From the NCBI GenBank assembly GCA_019695115.1, contig JAIBAP010000012.1, positions 50,001-104,369 of the forward strand: DNA of 54,369 nt, given 5' to 3'. The stretch is from Caldilineales bacterium (GTDB lineage: Bacteria > Chloroflexota > Anaerolineae > J102). Made by a program: the position numbers and the translations under genes. Positions 5,579 through 50,975 of the stretch are shown one piece after another; positions within the stretch are counted from its first letter, which is position 1; each line of letters opens with the position of its first letter. The notes below the pieces were generated by a model. It was given only the letters and a program-made list of their open reading frames with translations, was not told the origin of the DNA and ran no database searches.

Positions 5579-5726
5579 GTGACTCGATGCTTGGAAGTTG
5601 AGATAAGGGTCGGTTAGACTCTGGGTAAGAAAACGCCGCTGCTGTTACGTCGAAAGGCGGTCATCTGTGCGCTTGTGTGCGCACGCCGCCCTTCCCATTC
5701 TATCCAAAACGGAGTCTCTCACCCCA

Positions 5727-6188
5727 ATGTCAACTTTGAATATCGGCGACCCGGCCCCGGATTTCGCGGCCTCGACCGACGCCGGCGCCACCATCCGGCT
5801 TTCCGACTACCGCGGCAAGCGCGTGGTGCTCTATTTCTACCCGGCCGATGACACGCCCGGCTGCACCAAGCAGGCCTGTGGCTTTCGCGACAACTACCCG
5901 CTGATCGAGGAGAAGAATGCCGTCGTCTTGGGCGTCAGCCCGGATGACAGCAAGTCGCACCAGAAGTTCCGCACCAAGTTCGACCTTCCCTTCACCCTTC
6001 TGGTCGATCAGGATCACCAGATCGCCGAACAGTACGGCGCCTGGGGCGAGAAATCGATGTACGGCAAAACCTACATGGGCATCCTCCGCAGCCATTTCGT
6101 GATCGACGAGGCCGGCCACATCGCCGCCCTGCACTACAAAGTCAGCGCCGACGACAGCGTCGCCGAGGCCCTCGCCGCCCTCTCCTGA
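5727..6188 (+). CDS. bcp: Thioredoxin-dependent thiol peroxidase (Bcp/PrxQ)
   Basis: Atypical 2-Cys peroxiredoxin of 153 residues. The peroxidatic Cys46 and resolving Cys51 are in TPGCTKQACGFRDN, matching the Bcp spacing, and the peroxiredoxin core (YFYPADDTPGC, VLGVSPDD, LLVDQDHQIAEQYGAWGEK) is complete. It reduces hydrogen and organic peroxides in the cytoplasm using thioredoxin. The start at 5727 (MSTLNIGDPAPDF) was chosen because the upstream frame is not protein-like. It is followed by a pyrimidine-rich repeat and the glycosyltransferase. Confidence 0.95.
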   Translation: MSTLNIGDPAPDFAASTDAGATIRLSDYRGKRVVLYFYPADDTPGCTKQACGFRDNYPLIEEKNAVVLGVSPDDSKSHQKFRTKFDLPFTLLVDQDHQIAEQYGAWGEKSMYGKTYMGILRSHFVIDEAGHIAALHYKVSADDSVAEALAALS

Positions 6189-6251: not shown

Positions 6252-7463
6252 TTGCCCCTCCGTCTCCTCCTCCTCCTCCCCACCTCACCCCTCCCTGTCT
6301 TCAGTGGTGGGCGGGTGCGGATGTTCGAGGTAGTGCGGCGGCTGGCCCGACGCCATGAGGTCAGTGTTGCCGGCTTCTGGCGGAACGAGGAAGCGCGCCG
6401 GGGCTGGCAGCAACTGGGGCGCGAGCTTAACATCGAGGTTCAGGCCGTGCCCTTCACCCGCCTTCGCCCCGACCGGCGGCTGCCGGGGCTGCTGCGGCGG
6501 CGATGGCAGGGCTGGAGGCAGGGCGAGCCGGGCGACGCCGGCGCCTGGGATCAGCCGGCCATGCATGCGGCCCTGCGGCGGATGATGGCCGGGCAGCGCT
6601 TCGACCTCCTGCAAGTCGAGTGGCCCTACCTGGCGCCCTACGCCCTGACAACCCCCCAACTCCCCCGGCTGCTGATCACGCACGACATCTTTAGCGTGGC
6701 TCTGGCCCGCCGCGCCGGGCTGGCCGCCGGGCGCCAGCAGAAACGGCTGGAGCGAGAGGCCGCTGCCTGGGCCAGCTACGAGAGCCGAATCTATCCTCAG
6801 TTCCAGGCTGTGGCGGCGATGTCGGCTGAGGATGCAGCCGTCATCCGCCAACGGGCGCCGGCCGCCAACGTTGTCGTGCTGCCAAACGGCGTCGATACGG
6901 CCCACTTCACCCCCGGCGAGATCCGACCCCAGCCGCGCCATCTGATCTTCGTCGGCTCGCCCACCCATGTCCCCAACCTCGACGCCGCCTGCTGGCTGCT
7001 GAACGAACTCTGGCCCGAGCTGCGTCGCCGCCGCCCCGACTTGCGCCTGACCCTGGTCAATCTCGACCATCCACAGGTGCGCAAGCTCCAGCAGCCTGGG
7101 GTCGAGATCAGCGGCCGGTTGCCCGACCTGCGGCCGGTCTACGGCCAGGCCGACCTCGCCATCGTCCCCTTGCGGGCCGGGTCGGGCACACGGCTGAAGA
7201 TCCTGGAGGCCTTCGCTGCCGGGCTGCCGGTGGTCAGCACGCCGGTCGGCCACGAAGGGCTGGAGGTCGTCCCCGGCCGCCACTTGCTCAGCGCCGAGAA
7301 CGGCCCGGCCTTGATCGAAGCCATCGAAACCCTGCTCGACGATGTCGAACTGCGCCGAAGGCTGGCAGCCAATGCCCGGCAGCTGGCCGTCTCCCGCTAT
7401 GATTGGGAGCTCATCGTCGACCAGCACGACGCCATCTACCACCAACTTTGCCAACGCCCATGA
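6252..7463 (+). CDS. Glycosyltransferase family 4-type (GT-B fold)
   Basis: 403-residue GT-B glycosyltransferase transferring a sugar from an activated donor, probably to a cell-surface glycan or lipid. The N-terminal acceptor domain begins LLLLPTSPLPVFSGGRVRMF. The hinge region holds LPNGVDTAHFTP, and the donor site shows GSGTRLKILEAFAAGLPVVS with the E-x7-E type arrangement and the following TPVGHEGLEV. The TTG at 6252 is the best start in frame; a start a few codons later is possible. Its stop overlaps the ATG of the DsbA-like gene (ATGA), so the two are translationally coupled. Confidence 0.88.
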   Translation: MPLRLLLLLPTSPLPVFSGGRVRMFEVVRRLARRHEVSVAGFWRNEEARRGWQQLGRELNIEVQAVPFTRLRPDRRLPGLLRRRWQGWRQGEPGDAGAWDQPAMHAALRRMMAGQRFDLLQVEWPYLAPYALTTPQLPRLLITHDIFSVALARRAGLAAGRQQKRLEREAAAWASYESRIYPQFQAVAAMSAEDAAVIRQRAPAANVVVLPNGVDTAHFTPGEIRPQPRHLIFVGSPTHVPNLDAACWLLNELWPELRRRRPDLRLTLVNLDHPQVRKLQQPGVEISGRLPDLRPVYGQADLAIVPLRAGSGTRLKILEAFAAGLPVVSTPVGHEGLEVVPGRHLLSAENGPALIEAIETLLDDVELRRRLAANARQLAVSRYDWELIVDQHDAIYHQLCQRP

Positions 7464-8266
7464 AAACCCGCATCTTGTTCCTTCTCCTCCCCCTCGCCGC
7501 TTTGGTGGGGGCGTGTGGCGGCGCGTCCATCAGACTAACGACCGCGCCGGCGACGCTGGTCGTGGCGATGGCAGCCGAGCCAACGACGCCGCCAAAGGCC
7601 GACCCGACTGCCACCGTCGCCCCACTCCCCAGCCCGGAAGCCACGCCAGCCGAGACGCCGACCGCCGCCCCGGCGCCCACCGCTGAACCTGAACCAACTG
7701 CGCTGCCGGCGCCAACCGATTGGGCCGAGTTCGAAAGCCGGACAGCCGACGGGTTCTATGTGCGCGGGAACCCCGACGCGCCCATCCTCATCCTCGACTA
7801 TTCCGACTTCCTCTGAGGGGCCTGCCGCGCGCACGTGTTGCGCACCGAACCAGCTCTTATCGAAGCCTATGTCCGCACCGGCCAGGCCAGATTGCAGTTC
7901 TGGCATATCCTCGACCACGCCAACGCCTCGGTGCAGGCGTCGATGGCGGCCGAATGCGCCGGAGAGCAGGGCGCTTTCTGGCGGATGCACGATGCGCTGT
8001 TCGAGAATCAGGAACAGTTGTGGGGAGCGGACCCGGAAACGCATGTCGGTCTGGCCGCCAACCTCGGCCTCGATGCCGAAGCCTTCCGGCAGTGCATGGC
8101 CGGCGGGGTGAAGGAGAAGGTCATCGCCATTGACCGGCAGGCTAAGGCAGCCGGGGTGCGCATCCGCCCCACTTTTGACATCAGCACGGCCGGCGGCGCC
8201 AGCCAACGGCTGCAAGGATCTCCGCCCATCGACCAGTGGCAGACCTTGCTCGACGCCTTGCAGTAG
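7460..8266 (+). CDS. DsbA-like thioredoxin-fold lipoprotein, candidate selenoprotein (TGA at residue 119)
   Basis: Read through the TGA at 7814-7816, the frame gives 268 residues. It has a lipoprotein signal with lipobox LVGAC (Cys19), a Thr/Pro/Ala linker to about residue 85, then a DsbA/thioredoxin-fold domain. The active site reads LDYSDFL-(TGA)-GACRAHV, where the family has CxxC, so TGA stands exactly for the first catalytic Cys and Cys122 is the second. The domain continues normally: AAECAGEQGAFWRMHDALFE, then the cis-Pro loop VRIRPTFDI and a final helix. A SECIS-like hairpin follows the TGA. It would act outside the membrane as a disulfide oxidoreductase with Sec-x-x-Cys. The alternative is a nonsense mutation of a Cys codon. 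Confidence 0.75.
7817..7850 (+). promoter_or_regulatory. Candidate bacterial SECIS element after TGA 7814-7816
   Basis: The mRNA after the TGA can form a hairpin GCGCA (7829-7833), loop CGTGT (7834-7838), TGCGC (7839-7843). The loop starts 18 nt after the TGA and has G in its second position, similar to the distance and loop-G rule of E. coli fdhF. A C/A mismatch and weaker outer pairs lie below the stem. Folded by eye only. Confidence 0.45.
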
Positions 8267-8275
8267 GTGATGACC

Positions 8276-8860
8276 ATGCTTCAGCGTATCTGTGTCTTTT
8301 GCGGCTCGAATCCGGGTCATAACGGCGCTTATCAACAGACGGCGACCGAGTTGGGCCGGCTGCTGGCGGCGGAGGGCATCGGCCTGGTCTACGGCGGCGG
8401 GCGGGTGGGGATCATGGGCACGCTGGCCGATGCCGCCCTGGCTGGGGGAGGCCAGGTGATCGGCATCCTGCCGGCGGCCATGAACCGGCCCGGCATCCCT
8501 CACCCCGGCCTGACCGAGCTGCACATCGTCGATTCGATGCACAACCGCAAGGCGACGATGATCGCGCTTGCGGATGCTTTCATCGCCTTGCCCGGTGGCA
8601 TGGGCACGCTGGATGAGCTGTTCGAGGCCCTGACTCTGAGCCAGCTCGGTTATCAGCCCAAACCGATCGGCATCCTCAATGTCGCCGGGTATTACGACCC
8701 ATTGCTGGCGATGATCGAACACGCCATCGAGCATGGCTTTGTGCGGCCGCAGCACCGGGGCATCTTTGCCGTGGCCGAAGACCCCGCCATCCTCCTGAGC
8801 CAGCTGCGCCGCTTTCTGCACCCGGCCGGGTCGAAGTGGACGACGCTGGATCCCGACTGA
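8276..8860 (+). CDS. LOG-family protein (TIGR00730-type)
   Basis: About 195 residues, the usual size for LOG proteins, which are Rossmann-type phosphoribohydrolases acting on nucleoside 5'-monophosphates (cytokinin-riboside monophosphate in characterised members). Motifs: RICVFCGSNPG at the N-terminus, YGGGRVGIMG, and the family signature ALPGGMGTLDELFEALT. Three in-frame starts cluster here (GTG 8267, ATG 8270, ATG 8276). I prefer 8276 because AGGTG lies 7 nt before it. Separated by only a few bases from the upstream selenoprotein gene and by one base from the downstream TauE gene, so a four-gene operon starting with the glycosyltransferase is likely. Confidence 0.88.
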   Translation: MLQRICVFCGSNPGHNGAYQQTATELGRLLAAEGIGLVYGGGRVGIMGTLADAALAGGGQVIGILPAAMNRPGIPHPGLTELHIVDSMHNRKATMIALADAFIALPGGMGTLDELFEALTLSQLGYQPKPIGILNVAGYYDPLLAMIEHAIEHGFVRPQHRGIFAVAEDPAILLSQLRRFLHPAGSKWTTLDPD

Positions 8861-8861
8861 G

Positions 8862-9611
8862 ATGAATCCGCTGCTCATCCTGGCCGCCATTGCCGCCGGT
8901 TTTGCCGCCGGGTTCATCAACACCCTGGCCGGGAATGGTTCGTCGATCACGCTGCCGTTGCTGATTTTTATGGGGCTGCCGCCCACGGTGGCCAACGGCG
9001 CCAATCGCATCGGCGTCATCGCCCAGACGATGATGAGCACCTTCACCTATCACCGGCAGGGGGTGCTGCCCTGGCGCGATGGGCTGCGGCTGGTGGCGCC
9101 GGCGGCGCTGGGCGGGCTGGTGGGGGCGATGATCGCCGTCGATCTGGACGAGGAGAAGATGCGGCTGGCGATTGGCGGCATGCTGGTGCTCAGTTTCTTC
9201 CTCATCCTGCTGCGCCCCGAACGCTGGCTGCATGGTCGGGCCGAGGGCGCCCGGCCGATCCGCTGGTTCGATCTCCTGATCTTTTTCGCCATCGGCGTCT
9301 ACGGCGGTTTCATCCAGGCGGGGGTGGGGATTTTCCTGCTGATGGGGCTGGTGTTGGGGCTGGGTCACAATCTGATGAAAGGGAATGCGATCAAGTCCTT
9401 CCTGGTGCTGGCGCTGAATCTGGTGGCGTTTGCGGTCTTCATCCGCCACGGCCAGGTGGATTGGCTGATGGGCGGCATCCTGGCGGTGGGGCAGGTCGCG
9501 GGGGCCTGGGCCGCGGCCCGGATGGCGGTACAGCCTGCGGCCCAGCGGTGGGTGTACCGACTGTTGCTGGTGGTGGTGGTCGTGTCGGCGGTGCAGATCT
9601 TCTTGGGCTGA
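8862..9611 (+). CDS. TauE/SafE-family sulfite exporter-like permease
   Basis: 249-residue integral membrane protein with about eight hydrophobic segments and the TauE/SafE pattern: AGFAAGFINTLAGNGSSIT at the N-terminus and the repeat-related FIQAGVGIFLL around residue 150. The family exports or imports sulfur-containing anions and small organic acids; the substrate here is unknown. The start ATG at 8862 follows the LOG stop codon by one base. No sulfur-metabolism genes lie next to it, so the role stays open. Confidence 0.87.
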   Translation: MNPLLILAAIAAGFAAGFINTLAGNGSSITLPLLIFMGLPPTVANGANRIGVIAQTMMSTFTYHRQGVLPWRDGLRLVAPAALGGLVGAMIAVDLDEEKMRLAIGGMLVLSFFLILLRPERWLHGRAEGARPIRWFDLLIFFAIGVYGGFIQAGVGIFLLMGLVLGLGHNLMKGNAIKSFLVLALNLVAFAVFIRHGQVDWLMGGILAVGQVAGAWAAARMAVQPAAQRWVYRLLLVVVVVSAVQIFLG

Positions 9612-40852: not shown

Positions 40853-42466
40853 TCAGTTCAGACTCGCCAACACATCCTCCGGCGTCAGCAGGCGGGGGTC
40901 GCGGAAGAGTTTGTTCACCTGGCTGGCGAAGACCATCGATTCGGCCATGACGCGGCGGGCGGGACCATCGACCACGATCTGCCCCTCGGCCATCAGCGCC
41001 ACCCGGTCGGCGGCGGCGGCGGCCAGTTCGACATCGTGCGTGGCCATGATCACGGTCTTGCCCTCGGCCCGCAGGGCTTGCAGCAGGGCGGCCAGGTTGT
41101 GCTTCTGGATGTAGTCGAGGCCGCGGGTGGGTTCGTCCAGCAAGATGAGGTCGGGGCCGGAGACGAGGACGGCGGCCAGGGCCAGGCGCTGTTTTTCGCC
41201 TACCGAAAGGTCGCGCGGGTGGCAGCCGGCCAGATGGTCGATGCCCAGCCGGGCCAGCAGGGCCAGGTCGGCGGCCGGGTCGGGTGGGAGGCGGTGGGCG
41301 CGGCGGCTGTAGGCCAGCTCGCCGGCTGAGGTCTCGGCAAAGAGCAGGCGGTCGGGGTTCTGAGGGACGTAGGCGACGCGGGAAGCCAGGATTTCGGTGG
41401 GGACGCGGGCGGCATCCTGGCCCAAGACGCTCACACCACCCTGCGCTGGCTTCAGTAGCCCCACCAGGTGTTTGAGCAGGGTGCTCTTGCCGCTGCCGTT
41501 GCGCCCCATGACCGCCAGGAACTCGCCGGGCGCGACCTTCAGGCTGACCCCGCGCAGGGCTTCGACGCCGTTGGCATAGCGATGCCACAGCCGGTCGACA
41601 AGTACGGCCGGAGGGCGACCGTTGGCCGCTGGCGTTGGGGGCAGGGCGGGCGGATGCAGGCGGTCTTTCAGGGCCAGGGCGAAGCGGCGGCCGTCTTTGA
41701 TCGTCAAGGGCAGGGGGTCCCAGGCCAGGGCTTTGCCCAGGGCGATGAGCGGCGGGGTGAGGGGCGCCTGGCCGAGCACCTCAGCCGGCCGGCCGAGCAC
41801 GGGCGGGCGGCCATCTCCCGGCCAATAGAGGATGTAGTCGGCGTATTGCACCACTCGCTCCAGCCGGTGTTCGGAGAGGACGACGGTGATGCCCAGGTCT
41901 TCGTTGAGTTGCCGCAAGGCCAGGAGGACTTCTTCGGCGGCCTGGGGGTCGAGCTGGGAGGTCGGCTCGTCGAGGACGAGGAGCTGGGGGTGCAGGGTGA
42001 GCACCGAGGCGATGGCCACCCGTTGTTTCTCGCCGCCCGATAGGCTGCTGACCGGGCGGGCGCGCAGATGGGCGATGCGCAGCTGGTCGAGCACCTCTTC
42101 CACGCGCTTGCGCATCACATCCTGCGGCAAGGCCCAGTTTTCGAGCGAAAAGGCCAGTTCGTCCTCGACCCTATCCACCACAAAGCCGGCGTCGGGGTCC
42201 TGGAAGACCATCCCCACCAGGTCGGACATGCCTTTGGGGGCCAGCGCCACCGGGTCGCGGCCATCCACCCGCACGGTTCCGCTCACCCGGCCGCCGTAGA
42301 AGTGCGGCGTCAGGCCGTTGAGGCTGCGCAGGAAGGTGGATTTGCCGGCGCCCGATGGCCCGATCACCAGGACGAAGGCGCCCTGTGGTAGCCGCAACGA
42401 GACGTCGGACAGGGTAGGGGCGGGCGCGCCGGTGTACTGGAAGCTGAAGTGGTCGAGGGTGATCAT
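40853..42466 (-). CDS. ECF transporter fused A-A' ATPase
   Basis: 537 residues with two ABC domains in one chain. Domain 1 has GPSGAGKSTFLRSLNGLTPH, LSGGEKQRVAIASVL and LLVLDEPTSQLD. Domain 2 (from about residue 290) has GRNGSGKSTLLKHLVGLLKP, LSVGEKQRLALAAVL and LILLDEPTRGLD. This tandem arrangement is typical of energy-coupling-factor transporters and powers vitamin uptake. Last gene of the riboswitch-controlled cobalamin operon, following the T subunit. A longer apparent frame upstream is the shadow of the permease gene. Confidence 0.92.
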   Translation of the reverse strand: MITLDHFSFQYTGAPAPTLSDVSLRLPQGAFVLVIGPSGAGKSTFLRSLNGLTPHFYGGRVSGTVRVDGRDPVALAPKGMSDLVGMVFQDPDAGFVVDRVEDELAFSLENWALPQDVMRKRVEEVLDQLRIAHLRARPVSSLSGGEKQRVAIASVLTLHPQLLVLDEPTSQLDPQAAEEVLLALRQLNEDLGITVVLSEHRLERVVQYADYILYWPGDGRPPVLGRPAEVLGQAPLTPPLIALGKALAWDPLPLTIKDGRRFALALKDRLHPPALPPTPAANGRPPAVLVDRLWHRYANGVEALRGVSLKVAPGEFLAVMGRNGSGKSTLLKHLVGLLKPAQGGVSVLGQDAARVPTEILASRVAYVPQNPDRLLFAETSAGELAYSRRAHRLPPDPAADLALLARLGIDHLAGCHPRDLSVGEKQRLALAAVLVSGPDLILLDEPTRGLDYIQKHNLAALLQALRAEGKTVIMATHDVELAAAAADRVALMAEGQIVVDGPARRVMAESMVFASQVNKLFRDPRLLTPEDVLASLN

Positions 42467-42469
42467 GAG

Positions 42470-42535
42470 GAGAGACGCAGGGAGGGAGAGAGGGACGCAG
42501 GGAGGGAGAGAGGGACGCAGGGAGGGAGAAGGCGT
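42470..42535. repeat. GAGAGAGGGACGCAGGGAGG repeat
   Basis: Three copies of a 20-nt unit between the permease and ATPase genes, belonging to the family that encodes E2 linker 2. The plus strand is purely purine-rich, so the mRNA leader of the ATPase gene is pyrimidine-rich and lacks a Shine-Dalgarno. Confidence 0.75.
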
Positions 42536-43623
42536 CAGGGGGTGGGTTGGGGCTGGGGGGCGGGGAAGAGGAGGGCGGGGGCCAGGAGGAGGGCGGGGAT
42601 CAGACCGAGGAGAGGATTGAAAGGCGGGAGGAGGGGGTAGGGCGGGTAGGGATAGTAGAAAAGGGCGCGAGGGAAAAAGAGGCTGGTGACCAGGTATCCG
42701 GCCAGAGCCAGAAGGCTGGCGGCCATCACCACTGTATCGGTTCGCCGCCAGAGCCAGCGACGATAGCGGCTGCGGGGGAGGCGCTGGCCCTGCCGCCACA
42801 AGAGGAGGACGAGGAGGAGGCTGCCCACCAGGATGAGCACCAGGCCCGGCCAGGCTGCTTCGGCGAGGAAGGAGCGGAGCAGCAGCCCGGCCAGCAGCAG
42901 GATCAACCCCGCCAGGATGCCTGCCCCCGCCCACTGCCGCCGGCGGGATGATTCCGCCCGGCCGACGTGGCCGAAGCCGCGCGCTTCCATCGATTCGGCC
43001 AGCTGGATGGCGCGGTCGAGGCCGATGCCGAGGAGGGAGACGAAGAGGGGTTGCATGTCGGCCAGGCCGCGGGTGCGGTGGCCGCGCAGCCGTTGGGCCT
43101 GGCGCAGTTCGCCCCAGGCCGCCACCGTTTCGGGGATGAAGGAGACGGCGATGGTGAGGGCGACGCCGGCCGGCAGGGCAAAGGCGGGGGTCAGGCGCAG
43201 GAGGGTGTGGGGGCCGACGGCGCTGTTGAAGGCGCTGAAGGCCAGGATCATGACCAGAAAGCCGAGGGCGCTGGTCAGGCCGTAGAGGATGGCTTCGAGG
43301 GTGATGGGGCCGCCGATGAGGGGCCAGGAGGCGGGCAGGCTGACGAGGCTGTAGTCGCCGGTGTGGGAAGTGAGGGCGTTGAAGGCGACGGTGAAGAGGC
43401 CGAGGAACAGGGCCAGACGGACGACCGGTTTCCAGACGGCGGGGCGGGTGTCGGTGAGGGCGGCGGTCCCGCCGGCAGGCTGGCGACGGACGAGGACGGC
43501 GAAGACGAAGCCGATGCTGACGACGGCGACCAGCAGATAGAGCGGGTTGCGGGTGAGCAGGCCGATGCCGAACGCCGCCGCCAACCAACTGATCCAGGCA
43601 TAGGGGTGGTAGCCGACCGTCAT
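42535..43623 (-). CDS. ECF transporter T component (CbiQ/EcfT-like permease)
   Basis: 362 residues. The EcfT transmembrane core (residues 1-260) contains the ATPase-coupling motif ESMEARGFGH and a preceding QRLRGHRTRG, the two Ala-Arg-Gly-type coupling helices of the family. It is about 100 residues longer than usual; the extension holds two or three more hydrophobic segments (VVMAASLLALAGYLVTSLFF, LIPALLLAPALLF). It joins the A-A' ATPase to a substrate-binding S component, which is not encoded nearby. Three bases separate it from the upstream DUF4430 gene. Confidence 0.88.
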   Translation of the reverse strand: MTVGYHPYAWISWLAAAFGIGLLTRNPLYLLVAVVSIGFVFAVLVRRQPAGGTAALTDTRPAVWKPVVRLALFLGLFTVAFNALTSHTGDYSLVSLPASWPLIGGPITLEAILYGLTSALGFLVMILAFSAFNSAVGPHTLLRLTPAFALPAGVALTIAVSFIPETVAAWGELRQAQRLRGHRTRGLADMQPLFVSLLGIGLDRAIQLAESMEARGFGHVGRAESSRRRQWAGAGILAGLILLLAGLLLRSFLAEAAWPGLVLILVGSLLLVLLLWRQGQRLPRSRYRRWLWRRTDTVVMAASLLALAGYLVTSLFFPRALFYYPYPPYPLLPPFNPLLGLIPALLLAPALLFPAPQPQPTP

Positions 43624-46839: not shown

Positions 46840-47026
46840 GCGCAGGTGTCCGAGCTATCGCATCGCCGGGTTTTCTGGCTTGGGCCGAATGGCCCCAACA
46901 GTTGCGGGACAGCGCCGGATTGATTGAAGCTGGTCTGCCAGGGCAGAGGCTCCACACCGGACTTCCCCCGGCCATCTCCGGTCGAGATGGAAGGATGCGA
47001 TCAGGCAAAGGTGGTATGGAAATGTG
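46840..47026 (-). promoter_or_regulatory. Cobalamin riboswitch
   Basis: The minus strand carries the B12-aptamer signatures: GGGGAAGTCCGGTGTGGAGC (46950-46970), then TCCGGCGCTGTCCCGCAACT with GT (46896-46920, the B12 box), GCCAGAAAACCCGGC-type closing elements, and the long peripheral helices. The boundary is approximate. A promoter precedes it and an intrinsic terminator follows, so binding of a cobalamin should switch off transcription of the toroid-DUF4430-ECF operon. Confidence 0.88.

Positions 47027-48354: not shown

Positions 48355-50975
<2,621 letters not shown>

Follow-up and report, generated by a model that had tools for sequence, protein, structure and literature searches.

A thioredoxin-like lipoprotein gene of Chloroflexota that very probably reads its internal TGA as selenocysteine

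How should a gene be read that is complete from start to stop apart from a single TGA, when that codon falls on the first residue of a catalytic CxxC motif? Such a gene is found at 7460-8266 on the forward strand of a 54,369-nucleotide stretch of DNA from a Caldilineales bacterium, here termed the window, which was taken from an assembly of 6.0 Mb in 135 contigs. It has been put forward, in a preliminary description made from the letters of the window, that the frame is unbroken apart from the TGA, that the TGA replaces the first catalytic Cys, and that the product is a lipoprotein with a UxxC site. All three points are borne out by the comparisons below. With a probability of about 95%, the product is an exported, lipid-anchored oxidoreductase of the DsbA/Thioredoxin_4 fold with a Sec-x-x-Cys active site, in which selenocysteine (Sec) would be inserted at the UGA via a downstream hairpin. 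This reading is comparative, and it draws on the frame, the machinery genes, the Sec/Cys column, a covarying SECIS, the lipobox, the fold and the UxxC motif.

The frame begins with ATG, ends with TAG and has the TGA as its sole interruption. The read-through product contains 268 residues, with the TGA as residue 119 in SDFL-U-GAC (Table 1). Gene callers that do not support Sec would cut this gene short. The protein consists of a signal peptide and lipobox (MKTRILFLLLPLAALVGA-C19), a linker rich in Pro, Thr and Ala that ends near residue 90, and a thioredoxin-like domain with the active site SDFL-U119-GA-C122. The Pfam family Thioredoxin_4 (PF13462) matches residues 100-242 (2.6e-19) and thus spans both sides of the TGA. 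The residues that are invariant in an alignment of 35 rows include the lipobox Cys, D116, U/C119, C122, C166, C212 and P237, and C166 and C212 possibly form a second disulfide. The residue that precedes the cis-Pro is Arg or Gln across the whole family, whereas the CxxC paralogues in the genome have Thr there.

Table 1. Positions in the window of the selenolipoprotein gene, its sites and its neighbors
Feature	Position	Strand	Basis
Glycosyltransferase, upstream gene	6252..7463	+	Pfam; adjoins the selenoprotein also in L042, L043, L055
Selenolipoprotein CDS, 268 residues with U119	7460..8266	+	NF041057, 250 bits; Thioredoxin_4, 2.6e-19
Lipobox Cys C19 (VGA-C), predicted lipid-anchor site	7514..7516	+	Invariant, 35-row alignment
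UGA codon, very probably selenocysteine U119, first residue of UxxC	7814..7816	+	Comparison of relatives
Resolving Cys C122 of UxxC	7823..7825	+	Invariant, 35-row alignment
Bacterial SECIS hairpin	7827..7845	+	Covariation; fold; model match 44.4 bits, E 2.1e-10
Cys C166	7955..7957	+	Invariant, 35-row alignment
Cys C212	8093..8095	+	Invariant, 35-row alignment
cis-Pro position P237 of the thioredoxin fold, Arg before it	8168..8170	+	Alignment
LOG-type "possible lysine decarboxylase" family protein, downstream	8267..8860	+	Pfam; kept in 6 loci
TauE/SafE family membrane protein, downstream	8862..9611	+	Pfam; kept in 6 loci

The protein is a further member of a known, curated (seleno)lipoprotein family, and the family is not new. 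The NCBIfam model NF041057, termed "Rcas_1661 family thioredoxin-like (seleno)lipoprotein", matches residues 10-266 with 250.3 bits compared to a curated cut-off of 190, covering model positions 3-246 of 247. The lipobox expected of the family is present in the window protein (N-terminal C19, invariant in the 35 rows), and lipidation is predicted. Family and window protein are alike in whole length, lipobox, UxxC and thioredoxin-like domain, with no difference of substance. The locus tag in the family name (Rcas) is that of Roseiflexus castenholzii, which belongs to another class of the phylum, and a literature search for the name Rcas_1661 gave no match. In a 2026 review (PMC13188914), the family is tabled as a "DsbG-like protein, UxxC" selenoprotein.

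The fold places the protein more precisely. The AlphaFold model has a mean pLDDT of 89, with values of 95-99 over most of the domain, and its best matches among solved structures are of the DsbA type (top match 3f4r, 1.7e-12); a sequence search likewise finds DsbA/BdbD-type proteins as the closest solved structures. Wolbachia alpha-DsbA1 (3f4r), Corynebacterium diphtheriae TsdA (7unn) and B. subtilis BdbD (3eu3) share the thioredoxin fold with an inserted helical domain, but they carry Cys where the window protein has the putative Sec, and identity is about 18-27%. Chains of E. coli-type DsbG appear from about the 30th rank, with TMq of 0.36-0.42. An E. coli-type DsbG was rejected, as the window protein has only one folded domain, behind a linker of low model confidence, and not the N-terminal dimerisation domain of DsbG. 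The label "DsbG-like" used in reviews therefore seems loose. An assignment to DSBA (PF01323) was also rejected at 22.5 bits compared to the Pfam gathering cut-off of 25.6, and the protein is best described as Thioredoxin_4. DsbA-like selenoproteins known from the Sargasso Sea and from anaerobes (COG2761, PF01323; PMC1088965, PMC1794560) likewise have UxxC in a DsbA-type fold. However, they are a separate family in reviews (PF01323, not NF041057), and the window protein falls below the PF01323 cut-off.

Relatives were collected by searching with NF041057 in the class (298 genomes) and in the phylum (400 genomes), and two loci from genome contigs were added; the pairs L040/L054 and L043/L055 are near-copies. 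The homologue alignment that had been proposed as a check finds TGA at the exact column at 49 sites, this one included (L081 being the 49th), which come from numerous genera and families and have an otherwise intact frame, and TGC or TGT in the same column at 12 loci. In two genomes of one genus (L077 and L079), the selenoprotein gene is duplicated in tandem, and both copies have the TGA, followed by the same hairpin. An ordinary Cys-x-x-Cys DsbA gene could in principle have become a pseudogene by a nonsense mutation, or appear as one by a sequencing error, since one base change turns TGC or TGT into TGA and Cys versions occur in relatives. This is extremely improbable: recurrence of the TGA in the same column at 49 sites excludes a chance origin, its conservation across many genera means that it is no read error for TGT or TGC, and the codon is accompanied by a covarying hairpin. 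The gene thus very probably reads its internal TGA as selenocysteine at a thiol-redox active site, as judged from sequence comparison.

The hairpin had been described as having a loop G 18-19 nucleotides downstream of the TGA. It is present, spanning +11 to +29 after the UGA, with a core stem of 7829-7833 paired to 7839-7843 and the loop CGUGU at 7834-7838, which places G at +19 and U at +20; this layout is backed comparatively. A check by folding of 7814-7860 gave a divided answer, in that the hairpin does form but is not more stable than shuffled sequences (z 0.45). Single-sequence folding was accordingly rejected as uninformative, and the support for the hairpin is comparative. According to PMC13188914, bacterial SECIS elements have a loop of 3-9 nucleotides, a stem of 4-16 base pairs, G in the first two loop positions, a distance of 16-37 nucleotides from the UGA and an energy limit of -7.5 kcal/mol. 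The window hairpin fits this consensus with a 5-nucleotide loop (CGUGY), a 5-base-pair core stem, a G-U step at loop positions 2 and 3, and a spacing of 17 nucleotides. Its energy is -7.3 kcal/mol for the 23-nucleotide piece, which is borderline for the hairpin alone, and -14.3 for a 47-nucleotide stretch.

Across 44 distinct sequences, the letters at +18 to +21 are CGUG in every one, which is narrower than the general bacterial consensus; the loop of L081 differs from the family consensus. In the seven-pair stem (+11 to +17 with +23 to +29), 90.9% of cells are paired compared to 63.1% when the 3′ letters are shuffled, and every slid register pairs at most 53%. Cells changed on both sides number 95 compared to 27.5 expected from shuffles, and stem covariation is 0.788 compared to 0.242, with 0 of 500 shuffles as high. 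The loop-closing pair +16/+24 is C-G in 26 sequences, U-A in 16 and U-G in 2 (Fisher 3.7e-10, relatedness ignored). As +16 is the first base of a His/Tyr codon and +24 the wobble base of a mostly Leu codon, protein coding is no explanation for this covariation. In L046, A-U at +17/+23 is swapped to U-A, and the window hairpin itself has one mismatch (+12/+28). The covariance model behind the match given in Table 1 was built from the 44 sequences, the window's own among them. A search of the whole genome with this model found only the gene itself as a convincing case; the next match (21 bits, E 0.05) was rejected as it lies in no recognisable selenoprotein frame.

The hairpin also bears on whether the TGA is a true stop that yields a truncated protein or two separate products. 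TGA is a standard stop, and some termination at Sec codons always occurs. However, with a stop here the thioredoxin fold would be broken off at its active site, Cys orthologues read straight through, and genes with TGA keep the hairpin, whereas those with Cys have mostly lost it (the +16/+24 pair is retained in 1 of 12 Cys loci, L075). A true stop is thus very unlikely, though slightly less so than a pseudogene.

Decoding of Sec would require dedicated machinery, and the four genes that the preliminary description had suggested looking for are all present. A tRNA-Sec scores 73 bits, above the Rfam cut-off, and is called by ARAGORN as tRNA-SeC with anticodon TCA (UCA), while SelA, SelB and SelD each exceed their curated cut-offs. 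The genome is thus equipped, by its gene content, to decode Sec, and the description's own counter-case of a genome lacking SelB and tRNA-Sec does not apply. Changed codes in which UGA encodes an amino acid are known in other bacteria, and by this precedent the UGA might be decoded as some other residue. This is about as improbable as a pseudogene, given that tRNA-Sec, SelA and SelB are present, that relatives have Cys in its place, and that the upstream glycosyltransferase gene, probably of the same operon, stops with TGA (7461-7463). The SelD gene (L023:1531-1533; contig C3:3875-4810) has its own in-frame TGA, in AACAG-U-ASK, and is probably itself a selenoprotein gene. In the window, a tRNA search found no tRNA-Sec, and ARAGORN called an 89-nucleotide tRNA-Thr (GGT) at 50144-50232 (-), inside long open frames; this call may be false because it is unusually long for tRNA-Thr and without an Rfam match. 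The sole Rfam match in the window is a cobalamin riboswitch at 46848-47011 (-), with 42 bits.

In the wider-phylum sample, SelA occurs in 15 of 15 genomes with the TGA gene compared to 6 of 13 with Cys only, 7 of these 13 being without SelA (Fisher p 0.0014, relatedness ignored). Within the class, the comparison is not significant (30 of 32 with the TGA gene, 30 of 38 controls; p 0.10), and SelA presence was rejected as a test there, SelA being common in the class. The two TGA genomes of the class sample without a full SelA have a short fragment (G047) or no real match (G248, 91% complete). In two genomes of one genus, the SelA match is split into two in-frame pieces (G183, C20:34064-35494; G236, C1:3959807-3961237) by roughly 95 additional bases, which lie between model positions 245/246 and 247 and look like an insertion common to both. 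Overall, TGA and SECIS go together, joined in part of the phylum by the Sec machinery, and the Cys relatives serve as matched controls.

The distribution of Sec and Cys was followed on a maximum-likelihood tree rooted with CxxC paralogues as outgroup, and another tree was built without the outgroup. On the rooted tree, the Cys rows fall within the Sec family, and the Sec label changes six times, at least five of these changes being forced by well-supported branches. One gain and about five losses of Sec is the simplest reading that the tree suggests, although gains and losses are not told apart by parsimony alone, and the tree has several weak deep forks and some long outgroup branches. Losses are favored because the SECIS loop is common to the family and because L075 retains a relic SECIS. 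L075, L076 and L069 belong to one genus and have nearly identical SECIS elements; L075 and its Sec sister L076 do not differ in the hairpin at all, but the codon is TGC in L075 and TGA in the other two. By its sequence, L075 has switched from Sec to Cys recently and keeps an intact relic SECIS. It is likely that Sec is ancestral in the family and was swapped for Cys about five times, once so recently that the Cys gene keeps its SECIS.

The gene neighborhood gives some indication of context. The gene's ATG overlaps with the stop of the glycosyltransferase gene (ATGA, 7460-7463), which is probably in the same operon, and the LOG-family gene begins at the base right after the selenoprotein stop. 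In relatives of the same taxonomic family (L040, L042, L043, L051, L054 and L055), the LOG and TauE genes also lie 3′ of the selenoprotein gene, and in three of these six loci the glycosyltransferase lies 5′. The same neighbors were not matched at the remaining loci, most of which reach only about 1.5 kb to either side. An AhpC/Bcp-type peroxiredoxin gene is found at 5667-6188 (+), just 5′ of the glycosyltransferase and selenoprotein genes. A tblastn search of plasmids found only distant DsbA-like proteins.

In the proposed mechanism, SelB with Sec-tRNA-Sec would bind the hairpin, and Sec would be inserted at the UGA in place of termination. Following export and processing at the lipobox, the linker would tether the protein through C19. 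Sec119 would attack a disulfide or an oxidised sulfur and C122 would resolve the intermediate, so that catalysis would run through a U119-C122 selenenylsulfide.

In general, the disulfide of DsbA is less stable and more oxidising than a selenenylsulfide. A role as the main disulfide-forming oxidase, as in DsbA, is suggested by the DsbA/BdbD-type proteins that are closest by fold and sequence, but it is rather unlikely. No VKOR gene lies beside the selenoprotein gene; that of the genome is found on contig C48 directly next to another DsbA-like gene, one with Cys, and the two form the usual oxidase pair, in another operon. Arg/Gln rather than Thr before the cis-Pro also argues against it. As to the direction of the redox reaction, we lean somewhat towards a reductase, isomerase or peroxide/sulfur-oxidation repair role, given that the genome already has a Cys DsbA beside VKOR and that a selenenylsulfide would be the weaker oxidant. 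A weak DsbD_TM match is found on contig C37.

The genome contains a second selenoprotein candidate (L012:1732-1734; contig C30, about 41960-43222). It is a J-domain-like and transmembrane protein with two tandem DsbA domains, UPYC (TGA) in the first and CPFC in the second, and a TlpA-like gene adjoins it. A strong hairpin with a loop unlike the consensus lies 3′ of its TGA, and similarly long frames with one TGA occur in several other genomes of the class.

No new kind of system is revealed here. As far as the literature searched shows, three modest additions appear to be made here, namely the covarying SECIS, the Cys gene with a relic SECIS and the number of Sec-to-Cys switches, and the operon conserved in relatives is a further one. 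The selenolipoprotein gene offers an unusually clear example of how an RNA element evolves under both protein and structure constraint. Sec-to-Cys substitutions have been described as rare and documented mainly in FdhA and SelD (PMC13188914). If Sec is indeed ancestral and was swapped about five times, this family would offer, against that statement, a natural series on when and why bacteria give up Sec.
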